Source: Flavobacterium sp. KACC 22761 (GTDB lineage: Bacteria; Bacteroidota; Bacteroidia; Flavobacteriales; Flavobacteriaceae). From it: a DNA stretch of 64,000 bases. The notes below the pieces were generated by a model. That model was not told the DNA's origin and ran no database searches. It was given only the letters and a program-made list of their open reading frames with translations. Below, piece after piece: positions 11,268 through 51,073 of the stretch. A program made the translations under genes and the position numbers. Position 1 is the first letter of the stretch, and each line of letters begins with the position of its first letter. Where the stretch lies: contig NZ_CP139148.1 in assembly GCF_034058155.1 (NCBI RefSeq), forward strand, positions 2,108,001 through 2,172,000, written 5' to 3'.

Positions 11268-12518
11268 TTACAATCCAAATGCAACTTTAACTTGGTCAAC
11301 AAAATCAAGTTTTTCCCATGTAAACAATTCAACAGTAACAGTTTTTTCGTTTCCACCTGGAGCAGAGAAAGTTTTAGTAACCGTTTCTGGTTTACGTCCC
11401 ATGTGTCCGTAAGCAGCAGTTTCGCTATAAATTGGGTTTCTTAATTTCAAACGTTGCTCAATAAAGTAAGGACGCATATCAAAGATAGCTTCTACTTTTT
11501 TAGCGATTTCACCGTTCGTTAAGTTTACTTTAGAAGTTCCGTAAGTTTCAATGAAAATACCCATTGGCTCGGCAACTCCAATTGCGTAAGAAACCTGAAC
11601 TAAGATTTCATCAGCAACACCTGCAGCAACTAAGTTTTTAGCGATATGACGTGTAGCATAAGCAGCACTTCTATCTACTTTACTTGGATCTTTCCCAGAG
11701 AATGCACCACCACCGTGAGCACCTTTTCCACCGTACGTATCAACAATGATTTTTCTTCCTGTCAAACCAGTATCTCCGTGAGGTCCTCCAATAACGAATT
11801 TCCCTGTTGGGTTGATGTGGTAGTTTATTTTATCGTTGAATAAATGAGCGTGTTTTGGATTTTTAGCTATAATTCTTGGAATCAAGATTTCAACGATATC
11901 TTTTTTGATTTTAGCCAACATTGCAGCTTCTTCATCAAAATCATCGTGTTGAGTCGAGATAACAATTGCATCAATACGAGTTGGTTTGTTATCGTCGCTG
12001 TATTCTAAAGTTACTTGAGATTTAGCATCTGGACGTAAATACGTGATTTCTTTGTTTTCACGTCTTAAGATTGCTAATTCTTGTAATAATTTATGAGATA
12101 AATCTAATGCCAAAGGCATGTAGTTTTCAGTTTCATTTGTAGCGTAACCAAACATCATTCCTTGGTCTCCAGCTCCTTGCTCTTCTGGCTTAGCTCTGTC
12201 AACACCTTGGTTAATATCTGCAGATTGCTCGTGAATTGCTGAAAGAATTCCACAAGAATTTGCTTCAAACATATATTCGCTCTTAGTATATCCAATTTTG
12301 CGGATTACCTCACGTGCAATTTGCTGTACATCAAGATAAGTATTTGATTTTACTTCTCCTGCTAAAATAACCTGACCTGTTGTAACTAATGTTTCACAAG
12401 CTACTTTCGAGTCAGCGTCAAATGCCAAAAAGTTGTCAATTAATGCATCCGAAATTTGATCTGCAACTTTGTCTGGATGCCCTTCACTAACAGATTCTGA
12501 CGTAAATAAATAAGCCAT
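11268..12518 (-). CDS. metK: S-adenosylmethionine synthetase
   Basis: 416 aa cytosolic enzyme making SAM from methionine and ATP. Family motifs are all present: [13 protein letters not shown] near the N-terminus, the [15 protein letters not shown] loop, [18 protein letters not shown], and [12 protein letters not shown] near residue 320. It is somewhat longer than the ~385-aa E. coli enzyme. It is preceded on its own strand by a SAM-II-like riboswitch and a clear promoter, so its product probably represses its own expression. It is divergent from the leader-peptide/metY region. Confidence 0.98.
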
Positions 12519-12582
12519 AATAATGATTAAATTTAAAATTAAGCGAGAAAAATAATTGCTAAAAAGGGCTAAAGGAGAGTGT

Positions 12583-12681
12583 CTGCTTTAGCATTTTTTA
12601 CTACTGAAAGAATTTTTTCAGCACCCATAACGAACCATTTCATTATGAAGAGGTTGCAATCAGTTCAAATTTTTCCTCTGT
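12583..12681 (-). promoter_or_regulatory. SAM-II-like riboswitch in the metK 5' UTR
   Basis: Read on the minus strand, a P1 hairpin AGAGG / CCTCT (12675-12679 and 12649-12653) encloses the loop TTTGAACTGATTGCAA. A distal AATGCTAAAGCAG (12583-12595) can close the pseudoknot through CTG/CAG. This matches the SAM-II core as known from metX riboswitches: loop ending ATTGCAA, then the GCTAAA strand. The linker is longer than in minimal SAM-II and holds two extra hairpins (CATAA/TTATG arms at 12626-12647; CTGAAA/TTTCAG at 12604-12621). The element begins at the predicted transcription start. Confidence 0.85.
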
Positions 12682-12690
12682 ATTCGGGTG

Positions 12691-12791: not shown

Positions 12792-12810
12792 AAAATATTT
12801 TTAATTTTGT

Positions 12811-12841
12811 TTGGCCGATTCAAAAATAGTTCGCAACTTTG
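12811..12841 (+). promoter_or_regulatory. Candidate promoter of leader-peptide unit 1
   Basis: TTG (12811-12813), a 20-bp spacer, then CAACTTTG (12834-12841), one base off TAnnTTTG. The leader-3 promoter has the same C variant (CAAATTTG) and spacing. Confidence 0.55.
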
Positions 12842-12869
12842 CCTCGTTGAAATAAAAAGAAACAAAAAA

Positions 12870-12938
12870 ATGAAATTTACAATTTGCAATATGATGTCTT
12901 GTATGATGCCGGAATATTCCGCAGAGACGTTATTGTAA
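12870..12938 (+). CDS. Met/Cys-rich leader peptide 1 (22 aa)
   Basis: Short ORF reading MKFTICNMMSCMM then PEYSAETLL and stop. Five of 22 residues are Met and two are Cys, clustered at positions 6-13 as C-N-M-M-S-C-M-M. The GCAGAG at 12921-12926, inside codons 18-19, can pair with CTCTGC of the terminator immediately downstream. Its 5' position, composition, stop just before a terminator and overlap with the competing strand are hallmarks of a transcription-attenuation leader (inference). Stalling at the Met/Cys codons would leave GCAGAG free to block the terminator; full translation would mask it. Confidence 0.75.
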   Translation: MKFTICNMMSCMMPEYSAETLL

Positions 12939-12964
12939 TTTTTTTTCAAAAAAAATATATAAAG

Positions 12965-12994
12965 AACCTCTGCACATCGCAGAGGTTTTTTTTG
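12965..12994 (+). terminator. Attenuator terminator 1
   Basis: Stem AACCTCTGC (12965-12973) / GCAGAGGTT (12979-12987), 5-nt loop, T-tract. The left arm's CTCTGC (12968-12973) is complementary to GCAGAG in leader 1, giving mutually exclusive structures. Confidence 0.85.
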
Positions 12995-13031
12995 GTCAAA
13001 AGAAAAAAAGAAAGAAAATTCACTTTTAAAT

Positions 13032-13062
13032 TTGGTAGTTAAAAAAATAGATATTACATTTA
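13032..13062 (+). promoter_or_regulatory. Candidate promoter of leader-peptide unit 2
   Basis: TTG (13032-13034), 20-bp spacer, TACATTTA (13055-13062). It is partly overlapped by operator copy 2. Confidence 0.5.
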
Positions 13063-13076
13063 CCCTATCGAATTAG
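13057..13076 (-). promoter_or_regulatory. Operator-like motif, copy 2
   Basis: Reverse-strand reading CTAATTCGATAGGGTAAATG. It overlaps the -7 element and start region of the leader-2 promoter, a position expected for a repressor. Confidence 0.6.
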
Positions 13077-13110
13077 TCGAATTTAAAAAAGAAATTAATT
13101 TTAATTAAAA

Positions 13111-13188
13111 ATGAAAACAGCAAGAAAAAATATGATGTGTTGTAGTATGATGCAAATGTGCATCCCAACTTGCTGTTGCCAAAAGTGA
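13111..13188 (+). CDS. Met/Cys-rich leader peptide 2 (25 aa)
   Basis: Reads MKTARKNMMCCSMM, then QMCIPTCCCQK and stop. Six Met and six Cys occur in 25 residues, far above any normal protein. The last codons contain CCAAAAG (13179-13185), complementary to CTTTTGG in the terminator that follows. The layout matches leader 1, so it is a second, tandem attenuation leader, with control codons for both sulfur amino acids. The stop TGA lies 32 nt before the terminator stem. No known protein family applies. Confidence 0.8.
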   Translation: MKTARKNMMCCSMMQMCIPTCCCQK

Positions 13189-13219
13189 AAGATAAAATCT
13201 TTGTTATAGTTTCAACTAT

Positions 13220-13255
13220 AAGCCCTTTTGGTCGCCATCCGAAAGGGCTTTTTTA
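13220..13255 (+). terminator. Attenuator terminator 2
   Basis: Stem AAGCCCTTT (13220-13228) / AAAGGGCTT (13242-13250) with a T-tract. CTTTTGG (13225-13231) can pair instead with CCAAAAG (13179-13185) in leader 2. A small extra hairpin ATAGTT/AACTAT lies at 13206-13219. Confidence 0.85.
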
Positions 13256-13277
13256 TTTACCATTTAAAATTAAAATC

Positions 13278-13460
13278 ATGAAAACATTAAATTCAATAGC
13301 TATAGAATATTTATTGAGAAACGATTCTCAAGACAATGCTAATAAATCAGAAGAGATCTCGAGAGAAGTCAACAGAATAAATTCAGAACAATACGCAAGA
13401 AATCAAAAATCATTGTTGCTTCAAATGTATGAACTCGAAGAGGGTGATTTTTTTGCATAA
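13278..13460 (+). CDS. Small protein of unknown function (60 aa), paralogue of the 16655 gene
   Basis: Starts MKTLNSIAIEYLLRND and ends KSLLLQMYELEEGDFFA. It is hydrophilic, probably helical, with no signal or membrane segment. The start at 13278 is preferred over the longer in-frame opening at 13158, which runs through leader 2 and its terminator. It lies between attenuator 2 and metY, 81 bp before metY. The 66-aa protein at 16655 shares the N-terminal M-x-T-L-N and the C-terminal S-L-L-x-x-M-Y-x-x-E pattern and the same position after a Met/Cys attenuator. I do not recognise a family; a regulatory or chaperone-like role in methionine synthesis is only a guess. Confidence 0.7.
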   Translation: MKTLNSIAIEYLLRNDSQDNANKSEEISREVNRINSEQYARNQKSLLLQMYELEEGDFFA

Positions 13461-13541: not shown

Positions 13542-14846
13542 ATGAGTACACAAAAATTTGCAACAAACGCGCTACATGCAGGACACGATGTTACTAAAAA
13601 CGCAGGAACTAGAGCCGTTCCAATTTATCAAACTTCATCATACGTATTTAATAATGCAGATCACGCCGCCAATTTATTTGGTCTTGCCGAAGCTGGATTT
13701 ATTTACACACGATTGAATAATCCAACAAATGATGTGCTGGAACAACGCCTTGCAGCGCTTGAAGGCGGGATTGGAGCTGTAGTGACAGCATCAGGAGCAT
13801 CGGCAATTTCGACAACTTTATTGACGCTATTAAGAGCTGGAGATCATATTGTAGCATCAAACAGTTTATATGGAGGAACTTACAATTTGCTAAGTGTGAC
13901 ATTGCCACGATTAGGAATTACCACTACGTTTGTAGATCCTTCAAAACCAGAAAATTTTACTAAAGCTGCCAAAGAAAATACAAGAGCCTTTTTTGTAGAA
14001 TCTTTAGGAAATCCAAAACTTGATGTTTTGGACTTAAAAGGAATTTCGGCGGAAGCCAAAGCATTCAAAGTGCCGTTTATAGTAGATAATACAGTTGCGA
14101 CACCTTATTTATTAAACCCAATTAAATATGGTGCCGATATTGTAATTCATTCCTTGACTAAATATATTGCCGGAAACGGAACTTCATTAGGAGGCGTTAT
14201 TATCGATGCCGGAAATTTTGATTGGGCAAACGGAAAATTTCCTGAATTTACGGAGCCTTCAGCGGGATATCATGGATTAGTGTACCACGAAGCTTTAGGA
14301 AATGCGGCTTTTATTGCAAAAGCAAGAATCGAAGGATTGCGTGATTTTGGCTCGGCATTGAGTCCGTTTAATGCTTTTCAAATTATTCAGGGATTAGAAA
14401 CTTTGCCAATCCGAATTAAAAAACACAGCGAAAATGCTTTGGCCTTGGCTGAATGGCTTGAAAAACAAGATGAGGTAGTTTGGGTAAATTATCCAGGCTT
14501 GAAATCAAGCAAATACCACGATTTAGCCAAACAATATTTGCCAGAAGGACAAAGTGGGATTATCACGTTTGGGTTAAAAGGCGGTTTTGATGCTGCGAAA
14601 AAAGTGGTTGACGAAACTAAATTATTCTCATTGTTGGCCAACATTGGCGATACAAAATCATTAATTATACATCCAGCAAGTACTACGCACCAGCAATTGT
14701 CTGAAGAAGATCAATTGTCAACTGGAGTTTCAAAAGATTTAATCCGACTTTCTGTTGGAATCGAAGATATCGAAGATTTAATTGCTGACTTGCAAGCTGT
14801 TTTTGAAAGCGTTACACAAGCGCAATACAGCATCAATAAAAATTAG
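13542..14846 (+). CDS. metY: O-acetylhomoserine aminocarboxypropyltransferase (sulfhydrylase)
   Basis: 434 aa PLP enzyme of the Cys/Met metabolism family, converting O-acetylhomoserine and sulfide to homocysteine. Motifs: YTRLNNPTNDVLE, EGGIGAVVTASGASAI, VDNTVATPYL and the PLP-lysine motif HSLTKYIAG with Lys207. The long insertion (WANGKFPEFTEPSAGYHGLVYHE) after the PLP site is typical of MetY and absent from cystathionine synthases. It sits downstream of two tandem Met/Cys attenuators and the small 60-aa gene, so expression should respond to sulfur amino-acid supply. Confidence 0.95.
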   Translation: MSTQKFATNALHAGHDVTKNAGTRAVPIYQTSSYVFNNADHAANLFGLAEAGFIYTRLNNPTNDVLEQRLAALEGGIGAVVTASGASAISTTLLTLLRAGDHIVASNSLYGGTYNLLSVTLPRLGITTTFVDPSKPENFTKAAKENTRAFFVESLGNPKLDVLDLKGISAEAKAFKVPFIVDNTVATPYLLNPIKYGADIVIHSLTKYIAGNGTSLGGVIIDAGNFDWANGKFPEFTEPSAGYHGLVYHEALGNAAFIAKARIEGLRDFGSALSPFNAFQIIQGLETLPIRIKKHSENALALAEWLEKQDEVVWVNYPGLKSSKYHDLAKQYLPEGQSGIITFGLKGGFDAAKKVVDETKLFSLLANIGDTKSLIIHPASTTHQQLSEEDQLSTGVSKDLIRLSVGIEDIEDLIADLQAVFESVTQAQYSINKN

Positions 14847-16401: not shown

Positions 16402-16503
16402 ATGCAAAAGTTTTTTAAAATAAAAGTCAAATCACAGATGAATAAATCCCTACAGATGAACAAGATGTTTAACGTCGCACGTATTTGTGTATGCGTCTGT
16501 TGA
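16402..16503 (+). CDS. Met/Cys leader peptide 3 (33 aa)
   Basis: Short ORF from ATG 16402 (alternative in-frame ATGs at 16438 and 16456) ending RICVCVC and stop. The last five residues are Cys-Val-Cys-Val-Cys, and three internal Met lie upstream. Directly after the stop, CTAAAAG (16506-16512) can pair (one G-U) with CTTTTGG of the following terminator. A ribosome finishing the peptide would cover that strand and allow termination; one stalled at the Cys codons would sit a few nucleotides further back. This is the third attenuation leader of the same design in this gene cluster. Confidence 0.7.
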   Translation: MQKFFKIKVKSQMNKSLQMNKMFNVARICVCVC

Positions 16504-16537
16504 TACTAAAAGTATATATAAGTTTATATAAAAACTT

Positions 16538-16576
16538 AAACCCTTTTGGTATTAAAAATCCAAAAGGGTTTTTTTA
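16538..16576 (+). terminator. Attenuator terminator 3
   Basis: Stem AAACCCTTTTGG (16538-16549) / CCAAAAGGGTTT (16560-16571), 10-nt loop, T-tract. The CCCTTTTGG arm resembles that of attenuator 2. Confidence 0.85.
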
Positions 16577-16654: not shown

Positions 16655-16855
16655 ATGAGCACATTAAACTACTTAAGAAAAAAGATTTCAACTTTCAAAA
16701 ACATCAAAAATGAAAGAAACAATCCGCCGCCAACAAATGAGTTGATCCACCCAAGTTTCGGAATCACGGAGACAGATAAAAAAGAGGTGAAAAAAGAACC
16801 AAATTCTTTGTTATTCTTGATGTATTCAAAAGAGAATGAAACGCTTTTTATCTAA
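16655..16855 (+). CDS. Small protein of unknown function (66 aa), paralogue of the 13278 gene
   Basis: Starts MSTLNYLRKKISTFKN, has a basic, Asn/Pro-containing middle (NNPPPTNELIHPSFG) and ends NSLLFLMYSKENETLFI. The M-x-T-L-N start and SLLxxMYxxE end match the 60-aa protein before metY. It follows leader peptide 3 and its terminator. It is separated from metX by about 440 bp that hold a new promoter and a SAM-I riboswitch, so it may form its own short transcript. No signal peptide, membrane segment or known domain is visible. Confidence 0.65.
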   Translation: MSTLNYLRKKISTFKNIKNERNNPPPTNELIHPSFGITETDKKEVKKEPNSLLFLMYSKENETLFI

Positions 16856-17089: not shown

Positions 17090-17118
17090 CACCGTTAAGT
17101 TCAAAAATGTATTGAAAT

Positions 17119-17223
17119 GTTATAAAGAAAGGAGGAGGGATTAGACCCGATGAATCCTTAGCAACCCTTCGTTAATTCGAAGAAGGTGCTGCATTCTACC
17201 ACGCCCAAACGTGGAAAGATAAC
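17119..17223 (+). promoter_or_regulatory. SAM-I (S-box) riboswitch upstream of metX
   Basis: Contains the S-box core words GGAGGGATTAGACCCGATGA, CCTTAGCAACC, GAAGGTGCTGCATTCTACC and the closing GAAAGATAAC. P1 is GTTAT (17119-17123) with ATAAC (17219-17223). The P3 hairpin is CTTCG/CGAAG-like, and P4 is formed by CCACG/CGTGG. No intrinsic terminator follows. AAAGAAAG of P1 could instead pair with CTTTCTTT near 17256-17263, so control may act at another level. Confidence 0.93.
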
Positions 17224-17298
17224 AACAAGAATTTTTCTAGTTTCAAACCCTAGACTTTCTTTCTAATATTTCCACATACAAATCAATAATAAAAAGAT

Positions 17299-35305: not shown

Positions 35306-35328
35306 CACTGTTCTTAAAATTATTGTTA

Positions 35329-35440
35329 GTTATCACGAAAGGCGGAGGGACAGACCCAATGAAACCTTAGCAACCCTTTACCATAAAGAAGGTGCTAAAT
35401 TCTACTTTTTACTAATTTTCAAGTATTAAAGATAGATAAC
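35329..35440 (+). promoter_or_regulatory. SAM-I (S-box) riboswitch upstream of metH
   Basis: Core words GGCGGAGGGACAGACCCAAT, GAAACCTTAGCAACC and GAAGGTGCTAAATTCTAC, with closing GATAAC. P1 pairs GTTATC (35329-35334) with GATAAC (35435-35440). P4 is weak and AT-rich. The coding start is more than 300 bp downstream, with a structured element in between. Confidence 0.92.
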
Positions 35441-35513
35441 ACAAATACATTACAAGTATTTCTCAAAACTTTTCCAGACAACATACAATATTTACTGAAA
35501 CAGATTCTGTATC

Positions 35514-35642
35514 AGGAGCGAATCATTGGCGCATTTTTGCAGTCAATAGTTCCCGCTGTACACAAATATCTTTTATTCTGAACCCCAGAATAAAAGGATA
35601 TTTGCTTCCATCGGGGCTAATGAGCCAGCAATAGTACACTTT
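35514..35642 (-). ncRNA. Structured flavobacterial intergenic element, copy A
   Basis: On the minus strand the core (35547-35619) reads TAGCCCCGATGGAAGC, a long AT hairpin (AAATATC..TTTTATTCTG arms, 35564-35603), then CAGCGGGAACTA; ends TAG..CCCG and CGGG..CTA pair. The same plan appears at 50975-51046. Such elements are frequent in Flavobacterium intergenic DNA as I remember them; I cannot say whether they match the Rfam Flavo-1 motif. It lies between the SAM-I aptamer and metH and may be part of the leader RNA. Confidence 0.6.
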
Positions 35643-35758: not shown

Positions 35759-36763
35759 ATGGCAATAACAATTCAAGAAGCAATAAAAAAAAATATCCTA
35801 ATCCTAGATGGAGCAATGGGAACAATGTTGCAACGCTATAATTTCTCAGAAGAAGATTTCAGAGGAGAGCGTTTCAAAGATTTCCCTCATCCGCTAAAAG
35901 GAAACAACGATTTACTATCTCTAACACAACCACAAGCAATCCGCGATGTACATGCCGCTTATTTTGAAGCAGGTGCTGACATTGTAGAAACTAACACTTT
36001 CTCTGGAACGACAATCGGTATGGCCGATTATCACATGGAAGATTTGGTTTACGAGTTAAACTACGAATCGGCAAAACTTGCACGCGAGGTTGCCGATGAG
36101 TTTACCGCAAAAAATCCTGAAAAACCACGTTTCGTAGCCGGTTCAATCGGACCGACAAACCGTACGGCAAGTATGTCACCAGATGTAAACGATCCGGGTT
36201 ACAGAGCTGTAACGTTCGATGATTTACGAATTGCATACAAAGAGCAAGTAGAAGCGTTAATGGACGGTGGCTGTGATTTACTTTTGGTAGAAACAATTTT
36301 CGATACATTAAATGCAAAAGCCGCACTTTTTGCAATTGAAGAAGTAAAAGAAGAGCGTAATCTCGATATTCCAATCATGGTTTCAGGAACGATTACAGAT
36401 GCTTCAGGAAGAACACTTTCAGGACAGACAGTCGAAGCTTTTTTGATTTCCGTTTCACATATTCCGTTATTAAGTGTAGGATTCAATTGCGCTCTTGGAG
36501 CCGATTTGTTGAAACCGTATTTGAAAACATTAGCACATAATACAAGCTTTAATGTTTCGGCACATCCAAACGCAGGATTACCAAACGCATTCGGACAATA
36601 CGATGAAACACCAGAGCAGACACAAGCATTCATTAAAGAATATTTAGACGATAATTTAATTAATATCATCGGTGGCTGTTGCGGAACAACTCCGGATCAT
36701 ATTCGATTAATGGCTGAGGTTGCCAAGGATTATAAGCCTAGAGTGGCGCCGGTATTGGTGTAG
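35759..36763 (+). CDS. metH: Methionine synthase MetH, homocysteine-binding module (split gene, part 1)
   Basis: 334 aa, equal to the N-terminal homocysteine S-methyltransferase domain of cobalamin-dependent methionine synthase. DGAMGTMLQ near residue 18, [16 protein letters not shown] near 127-142, and zinc ligands Cys244 (NCALG), Cys307 and Cys308 (GGCCGTT). The remaining domains are on the separate gene at 37578. Split MetH is common in Bacteroidota. It has its own promoter and SAM-I riboswitch far upstream; a CTTAG word repeat lies just before the ATG. Confidence 0.95.
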
Positions 36764-50950: not shown

Positions 50951-51073
50951 TTTTGAAAATAAAAATTTCTCGTCTAGCCCCGATTGAGGCGGCATCCTCG
51001 CATCCCGATGGCAATCGGGAGGAGAGATATAGCCGAAAGCGGGACAGAAGCTGTTTTGAAAATAAGAATTTCT
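50951..51073. mobile_element. Structured intergenic element, copy C, flanked by 20-bp direct repeats
   Basis: The core (50975-51046) reads TAGCCCCGATTGAGGCGGCA, a hairpin CCCGAT/ATCGGG (51004-51019), then GATATAGCCGAAAGCGGGAC. Direct repeats TTTTGAAAATAAAAATTTCT (50951-50970) and TTTTGAAAATAAGAATTTCT (51054-51073) differ at one base and flank it, suggesting insertion with target duplication or a duplicated insertion site. It encodes no protein. The plan matches copy A at 35514-35642. Confidence 0.6.

Follow-up and report, generated by a model that had tools for sequence, protein, structure and literature searches.

The window, the whole 64,000-nucleotide stretch analysed here, belongs to a Flavobacterium genome of 5.04 Mb in a single contig, and the MetY that it encodes matches, among named records, the MetY of Flavobacterium denitrificans at 100% identity. 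Two short units, A and B, lie on the plus strand between metK (minus strand) and metY, each consisting of a leader ORF rich in Met and Cys codons and an intrinsic terminator. The features of the region are as follows.

11268-12518, minus strand: metK
12578-12684, minus strand: SAM-II riboswitch of metK, from the Rfam scan
12810..12841, plus strand: candidate Bacteroidetes-type promoter of unit A (TTTGG N~20 AACTTTG), from sequence only
12870..12938, plus strand: unit A leader ORF MKFTICNMMSCMMPEYSAETLL, 22 codons, kept in relatives
12910..12921, plus strand: unit A predicted protector (1:2) hairpin CGGA(ATAT)TCCG, whose 3' strand extends to the start of the antiterminator
12921..12926, plus strand: unit A antiterminator 5' strand GCAGAG, lying within the leader ORF
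12963..12989, plus strand: unit A terminator AGAACCTCTGC...GCAGAGGTTTT, then a T run; predicted, -15.8 kcal/mol
13031..13062, plus strand: candidate promoter of unit B (TTTGG N TACATTTA), likewise read from the letters alone
13111..13188, plus strand: unit B leader ORF MKTARKNMMCCSMMQMCIPTCCCQK, 25 codons, kept in relatives
13179..13185, plus strand: unit B antiterminator 5' strand CCAAAAG, with pairing that continues into the terminator loop in relatives
13218..13252, plus strand: unit B terminator ATAAGCCCTTTTGG...CCGAAAGGGCTTTT; predicted, -18.5 kcal/mol
13278..13460, plus strand: open reading frame of 60 amino acids between unit B and metY
13542..14846, plus strand: metY (O-acetylhomoserine sulfhydrylase), PF01053; TIGR01326 at 648.8 bits, cut-off 495.1

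The first-pass annotation had described two Met/Cys-rich ORFs, each with a terminator behind it and a strand able to pair with that terminator, and all of these elements are present. The ORFs carry 5 Met and 2 Cys (start counted) and 6 Met and 6 Cys, the terminators begin 24 nt (A) and 29 nt (B) past the stops, and GCAGAG is complementary to CTCTGC at 12968-12973, as CCAAAAG is to CTTTTGG at 13225-13231. Its term "mutually exclusive terminators" has to be corrected, as the exclusion is between terminator and antiterminator within each unit and not between the two terminators. The hairpin of unit A, the first one, receives a terminator score on the minus strand as well; a role on that strand was considered and dropped.

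The Bacteroidetes-type promoter has the consensus TTG/TAnnTTTG. Degenerate matches to it precede 45 of 69 A-type and 64 of 133 B-type units, these being weak matches counted without a null. A promoter-like sequence resembling the one at 13031..13062 also precedes unit B in relatives that have B alone. The 60-amino-acid ORF has no Pfam or NCBIfam match, and tblastn gives matches to it in 63 of the examined loci.

A third unit lies downstream of metY, followed in order on the plus strand by a small ORF, a SAM-I riboswitch and a metX-like gene.

16402..16503, plus strand: third unit leader ORF MQKFFKIKVKSQMNKSLQMNKMFNVARICVCVC, kept downstream of metY in relatives
16506..16512, plus strand: third unit antiterminator strand CTAAAAG, directly after the stop; pairing seen in relatives
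16538..16571, plus strand: third unit terminator AAACCCTTTTGG...CCAAAAGGGTTT, loop of 10 nt
16655..16855, plus strand: ORF of 66 amino acids, no Pfam or NCBIfam family
17117..17225, plus strand: SAM-I riboswitch before metX, RF00162, 78 bits
17299..18288, plus strand: metX-like gene (homoserine O-acetyltransferase family), PF00561

The best NCBIfam model for the metX-like protein is MetX_acetyl, at 185.7 bits and under its cut-off of 500. The 66-amino-acid ORF has 191 homologues at E<=0.001, and the named ones among the 120 matches listed come from Flavobacterium or metagenomes; its conserved C-terminus, SLLFLMYSKENETLFI, is similar to the end of the 60-amino-acid ORF, SLLLQMYELEEGDFFA. At the end of the third unit, the RICVRVC stretch (16475-16503; L039, L041, L098) keeps its pattern while Cys alternates with Arg, Gly, His and Lys, and it may form a small hairpin, so that it could be partly structural. 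The window also holds two matches to the Flavo-1 RNA (RF01705), at 35545-35622 on the minus strand and 50972-51050 on the plus strand, the first of them flanked by a SAM-I riboswitch (35327-35442) and a gene with a metH-type homocysteine methyltransferase domain (35759-36763).

Units of this kind are rare by chance. A scan of the 64 kb, both strands, for ORFs of 10-45 codons with at least 4 internal Met/Cys codons (at least 18%) and a terminator following returned exactly two, units A and B; a null of 20 first-order Markov sequences, each 64 kb long and scanned on one strand, contained 1 match in total. With terminator loops of up to 12 nt, the scan returned A, B and the third unit and no others, the Markov null belonging to the stricter scan only. 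Composition played no part in a further comparison, in which every short ORF with a terminator following in the 900 nt before metY (132 distinct ORFs) was set against the other short ORFs there (299): Met was enriched 12.3-fold and Cys 7.4-fold, with Ala next at 3.0-fold.

The convincing matches of the RNA models R1 and R2 in the window genome were the three known units. The weaker R1/R2 matches whose loci were examined proved for the most part to be ordinary terminators or coding sequence and to lack a Met/Cys unit, and two extra weak matches of R3, the unit-B model (L213 and L214), have no such unit on either strand; in the set of 20 stretches to which these two belong, seven (L206, L208, L213, L214, L215, L217, L219) show none. 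The RNAalifold structures in R1-R3 caught little besides the terminators. The exception among the weaker matches, L152 (C1:3965326-3965442, plus strand), has a short ORF MQISVIIITSVVVVNVISTSASGMV and then a terminator upstream of ilvD, and is a predicted Ile/Val leader attenuator.

Alternative pairing and codon placement

The antiterminator and the terminator arm change together between lineages, the outcome that the first-pass annotation had named as a check of its proposal. Complementary pairs of unit A include GCAGAG:CTCTGC, GCAGGG:CCCTGC, GCAGCG:CGCTGC, TGTGGG:CCCACA and GCGGG:CCCGC, and the leaders before cysH add two of the A type, TGAGGGGTT:AACTCCTCA and CAAGAGG:CCTCTTG. Pairing in unit B and the third unit extends into the terminator loop, outside the constraint of the terminator stem, with pairs such as TTGCCAAAAG:CTTTTGGTAA, TGTTCTAAAAGG:CCTTTTGGAATA, TTGATACTAAAAG:CTTTTGGTATTAA and TGTTGCCGAAAG:CTTTTGGTAACA.

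In a test by random re-pairing, the observed helix score exceeded all 2000 re-pairings for unit A (n=90; 1488 vs 1296+-19) and for unit B (n=125; 2474 vs 2279+-22), in a set of 215 rows that contains some chance ORFs with at least 3 Met/Cys (e.g. L035, L068). By energy, the observed value was reached in none of the 2000 re-pairings for A, in 1 for B and in 3 for the third unit, and the energies of single units were better than 95% of shuffles in only 24/43 A, 19/72 B and 8/26 third units. In a fixed alignment, 99.3% of the cells of unit A were paired, vs 32-48% when slid, and 88.6% of those of unit B and the third unit, vs 30-68%. Cells with changes on both sides numbered 19 vs 8.5 shuffled in B/third (0/500 shuffles reach this) and 2 vs 0.2 in A (6/500). 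The number of pairs with such changes is unexceptional, at 1/6 in A (reached by 74/500 shuffles) and 3/10 in B/third (174/500), and much of the antiterminator pairing is invariant across units. All these permutation and re-pairing tests ignore phylogeny, that is, shared descent. A chance ORF at +1417 in L027 was left out of the counts, and the unit B of L092, whose pairing is intact, was left out of the pairing alignment (34 of 35 used) after a one-column shift by MAFFT.

The two units appear to differ in their upstream structure. Where the antiterminator starts, or close to that point, a protector (1:2) hairpin with 4 or more pairs was found in 21/21 A representatives vs 13.8 in shuffles, a class assigned by terminator sequence that takes in one probable B unit (L229). 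Its stems vary (CGGA:TCCG, TGTGGAA:TTCCGCA, CAGGT:ACCTG, TGCGT:ACGCA, TGCGG:CCGCA), and its 5' strand starts, in most cases, within the last control codons or immediately behind them. Among unit B and the rest, the hairpin occurs in 16/39, below the 23.1 of shuffles. As the hairpin is present in A and not favoured in B, unit A seems to have the segments of a trp-type attenuator, while unit B looks like a two-state switch. The contrast is weaker in ribosome-free folding ensembles, with 0.63 (A) vs 0.45 (B) paired upstream and wide ranges.

In the folding model, a stalled ribosome with the 3' arm not yet made gives antiterminator pairing a median probability of 0.98, and a ribosome at the stop codon gives the terminator one of 0.95. 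The full-length RNA at equilibrium forms the terminator (antiterminator median 0.00), so antitermination must act kinetically, as the antiterminators of known attenuators do.

The position of the Met and Cys codons fits this geometry. Over 201 units, their fraction is 0.38-0.79 at 15-47 nt before the antiterminator and 0.07-0.21 at 9-14 nt, the criteria for including a unit being a content of at least 4 Met/Cys (15%) and a sulfur gene no more than 1500 nt away, and not position. Sixty divergent representatives (<60% peptide identity) have Met or Cys at 344 of 657 codons (52%) in the first of these zones, at 72 of 521 (14%) from 14 nt upstream to 18 nt beyond the antiterminator start, and at 34 of 424 farther than 47 nt from it. 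In a ribosome stalled with its A site empty, the leading edge lies some 12 nt farther on. The placement is thus the one predicted if a stalled ribosome would free the antiterminator and a ribosome at the stop codon would cover it. Cys shows a further, lower peak at 0-5 nt, which comes from the terminal CCC that unit B has in one clade and which varies to Y, S, R and others; a stall on this run would block the antiterminator, and this counts against the model.

Upstream of the antiterminator, Met/Cys codons change less than the others in unit A (0.19 vs 0.38) and unit B (0.17 vs 0.43), and about like the others in the third unit (0.14 vs 0.18). Differences by codon position amount to 526/485/681 in A, 2986/5120/4375 in B and 103/63/115 in the third unit, a third-position excess that is small in A, absent in B and not clear overall, so the claim that the ORFs are coding rests on Met/Cys conservation and placement. 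Position and conservation together support the joint reading of Met and Cys suggested by the first-pass annotation.

Distribution, controlled genes and the SAM-I riboswitch

A MetY match at the cut-off was found in 37 of 61 genomes of the genus sample, and 30 loci were examined. At least one strict unit lies within 1 kb upstream of metY in 29 of these 30 loci, the window's own included (both strands scanned), and in every one of the 80 named loci, which are the best-matching of 358 and come nearly all from Flavobacterium. This supports the conservation that the first-pass annotation had asked about. Two or more units occur in 12 of the genus loci and 29 of the named ones. The one miss, L031, has an ORF of the right type and no called terminator, yet a GCCTCCC...GGAGGC hairpin precedes a T run there. 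The unit-B covariance model matched 45 of 61 Flavobacterium genomes at E<=0.05, and F. psychrophilum carries a unit B (L108).

Outside the genus the units become sparse. In the family sample (MetY match in 77 of 120 genomes; best 30 loci examined, the window's own included), 6 of the 29 loci of other Flavobacteriaceae genera have a unit upstream of metY, and the unit-B model matched 20 of the 120 genomes at E<=0.01, including that of the window, many weaker matches showing no unit at the locus. Among loci from the remaining families of the order, 3 of 10 carry a unit (the upstream sequence of one of the 10 is just 15 nt long). Among those from the remaining orders of the class, the figure is 2 of 26, and both of these, MIAFKSININMMMCCCMPINRPEQLYHIA and MLFQKNMFCCCMMHKCVGASSC, likewise have a strand complementary to the terminator arm. 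Three loci from other families of the order (L284, L285, L287) have short Met-rich leaders without Cys (MNTMQMYMIMRFRLLLEI, MNYLNMYMRMLMPRLT) and terminators before metY, two of them with a similar tail.

The tandem layout is itself conserved, with 53 distinct pairs. In 28 of them, fewer than 70 nt separate terminator 1 from ORF 2, a distance into which a second promoter with its 5' UTR would hardly fit, if at all. The gap in the window is about 120 nt and contains the promoter-like sequence at 13031-13062. The earlier reading of two units in series therefore stands as a conserved arrangement, with the qualification that unit B of the window may also begin its own transcript.

The genes found behind such units are metY, metX, an OsmC-family gene, the 66-amino-acid ORF, a TonB receptor gene and cysH (sulfate assimilation). 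Around cysH, 9 of 30 loci have units (two units at 7 of these) and 21 have none, these being the 30 loci nearest the G038 protein, from 80 of 150 genomes with a match, scanned with a looser cut (3, 12%). Of the control codons, a fraction of 0.57 are Cys before cysH (7 representatives) and 0.31 before metY (41 representatives; one-sided permutation p=0.0001, the two units of a single locus not being independent). Nearly pure Met leaders, e.g. MMMVMMMSMMM, precede metY in three genomes, and a Cys-rich one, CCCAKCC, has the same architecture. Codon content thus tracks the target gene, a hint that the amino acid being sensed is predictable from the sequence. The window's own cysH and cysteine-synthase-type genes have no unit, nor do the PALP and PAPS-reductase genes of the window genome within 900 nt upstream on the proper strand.

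Some loci are arranged differently. In G053 (L216, L003), unit A is followed by a TonB-dependent receptor gene, and unit B and metY lie beyond it in the downstream direction; the receptor is possibly an uptake gene under the control of sulfur amino acids. Upstream of cysH in L224, L225 and L228, the second leaders have runs of Thr, Ile and Leu before the Met/Cys run (MNTIIIITTLLTSAACMMMCCCM in L224), and these might read several amino acids.

The SAM-I riboswitch senses S-adenosylmethionine through an aptamer and has no ORF. Where the leaders are missing from other Flavobacteriaceae genera, a same-strand SAM-I riboswitch stands upstream of metY in 22 of 23 loci, and the sole exception, L118, begins 384 nt before metY, at a contig end. 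None of the 6 loci with a leader has one upstream; in L114 and L131 the riboswitch lies downstream of metY. In five additional family loci without a leader (L279-L282, L293), SAM-I is upstream in every case. In the 20 Flavobacterium loci scanned (of 30), no SAM-I was found before metY, and 8 of these 20 have one downstream of the gene. No SAM-I was found either at the metX loci with leaders of two genomes (L203, L204). Farther away, SAM-I lies upstream of metY in 10 of 12 class-level loci scanned (of 26) and in 0 of 8 order-level loci. The metY leader of the window contains no SAM-I or SAM-II aptamer, the nearest being the SAM-II of metK at 12578-12684 (minus strand) and the SAM-I of metX at 17117-17225. 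Counted by locus, leaders and SAM-I riboswitches are nearly exclusive of each other at metY.

The genome of L118, G067, has a leader pair on another contig than that metY, adjoining a transposase-like gene (L259); an insertion element may separate the pair from metY.

Mechanism, alternatives and known systems

The region upstream of metY very probably holds two ribosome-mediated transcription attenuators, one behind the other. The ribosome-stalling attenuation put forward by the first-pass annotation is supported by conservation, covariation, codon placement, Met/Cys enrichment and the hairpin of unit A. In each unit, a ribosome translating the short ORF would follow RNA polymerase. When charged Met-tRNA or Cys-tRNA is scarce, it would stall on the Met/Cys run with its leading edge just short of the antiterminator strand, which, left free, would pair with the 5' arm of the terminator, so that transcription would continue. 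When both tRNAs are plentiful, the ribosome would reach the stop codon and cover the antiterminator strand, and the terminator would form. If the leader is not translated at all, unit A, with its 1:2 hairpin, should close, and unit B, apparently without one, should stay open. A transcript from the first promoter would have to pass both units.

Other explanations were weighed against these attenuators. TnaC is an arrest peptide that senses Trp, and the leaders could similarly be arrest peptides sensing a small molecule (Met, SAM or Cys), with codon occupancy secondary. Some residues other than Met and Cys are indeed kept within subgroups, such as CNM in unit A and RICVRVC in the third unit. Across lineages, however, the leaders share Met/Cys content and distance to the antiterminator and not sequence, Met-only (MMMVMMMSMMM) and Cys-rich (CCCAKCC) leaders occupy the same architecture, and the conserved W-K/P-E of unit A coincides with the 1:2 hairpin, which together make an arrest peptide improbable. 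Still less probable is that the ORFs encode functional Met/Cys-rich peptides, metal-binding ones for instance, with the terminators merely marking 3' ends: the dense Cys and Met, and units that look like short complete genes with terminators, would suit such peptides, but the complementarity of the ORF ends to the terminator arm or loop, the covariation, the codon placement and the link to sulfur genes would go unexplained. A riboswitch or T-box with an incidental ORF is the least credible of all. SAM-I and SAM-II riboswitches lie nearby and SAM-I takes the same place in relatives, but no Rfam family matches 12800-13260 at the gathering score, no T-box was reported among the 4227 families scanned, and the constraint in units A and B follows the Met/Cys codons.

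A variant compatible with the attenuators is that only unit B controls metY here, unit A being left over from a separate transcript, its terminator ending a short RNA. In its favour is the arrangement in G053, with unit A before the TonB receptor gene and with a separate promoter-like sequence at the unit B that stands before metY, while the gap of <70 nt in 28 of 53 tandem pairs suggests one transcript; we regard this variant as rather unlikely, if less so than the other alternatives.

The classical trp, his, thr and ilv attenuators of Proteobacteria combine a leader peptide with control codons, 1:2, 2:3 and 3:4 pairing and an intrinsic terminator. The metY leader shares the control-codon peptide and the terminator with them, and unit A apparently the pairing scheme, but Met and Cys codons would act jointly in the proposed attenuators, two non-identical units stand in series and B appears to lack the 1:2 hairpin. 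The SAM-I riboswitch (RF00162) occupies the same position before metY in other Flavobacteriaceae genera, and stands before metX in the window, but differs from the metY units in being an aptamer without an ORF and in its ligand, S-adenosylmethionine.

The impression of the first-pass annotation that such control was undescribed in this lineage does not hold, as leader-peptide attenuation in Bacteroidetes is already on record (RF01692; PMC9723704). Bacteroid-trp is the Bacteroidetes Trp leader peptide RNA (Rfam RF01692, in the list of Weinberg 2010). Compared by its Rfam description, it is alike in phylum and in leader-peptide control of amino-acid synthesis and unlike in reading tryptophan; it has no match in the window at the gathering score and one match near a cysH locus (L228). 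A 2021 transcriptomic study of Flavobacterium psychrophilum speaks of "strong clues" for attenuation by leader peptides ahead of amino-acid operons (PMC9723704), and the metY leader of that species may be among the entries of its Table S7. Short ORFs reminiscent of leader peptides are mentioned for Bacteroides thetaiotaomicron (PMC7366714). In Rhodobacterales, uORFC-8-2 before cysS has Cys codons in a short ORF and an intrinsic terminator, with ribosome-mediated attenuation predicted (PMC8632094); unlike the metY leader, it is presented there as a single alphaproteobacterial unit reading Cys only, before a tRNA synthetase gene. Runs of Cys codons in short ORFs are described for the cys operons of Mycobacterium and Propionibacterium and for cbs of Bifidobacterium, which, in contrast to the metY units, have no conserved terminators, and the 2005 authors state that they saw no conserved RNA structures upstream of methionine operons of Actinobacteria (PMC1262725, PMC4633059). 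Our literature search, with most subscription journals outside its coverage, found no published Met-codon control or joint Met/Cys sensing, no tandem leaders in this phylum and no riboswitch exchange of this kind.

The wider reading, on which our confidence is evenly divided, is that a family of tandem attenuators across Bacteroidia would read charged Met- and Cys-tRNA and would have swapped places with SAM-I at metY and metX, shifting control from SAM to the amino acids used in translation. Units A and B would be non-identical by design, A closing and B staying open when translation fails, and this would be the first attenuator governed by Met codons; to our knowledge, none controlled by methionine codons was known earlier. 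If true, Met, and the joint reading of Met and Cys, would join the amino acids with inferred leader-peptide attenuation. The distribution of leaders and SAM-I riboswitches would provide a natural experiment on why a lineage switches between a metabolite sensor and a sensor of charged tRNA. Methionine is special in this respect, as the limiting amino acid also serves initiation, so that starvation affects initiation too, and the contrast between A, with a protector hairpin, and B, apparently without one, makes this effect of Met starvation on initiation testable.
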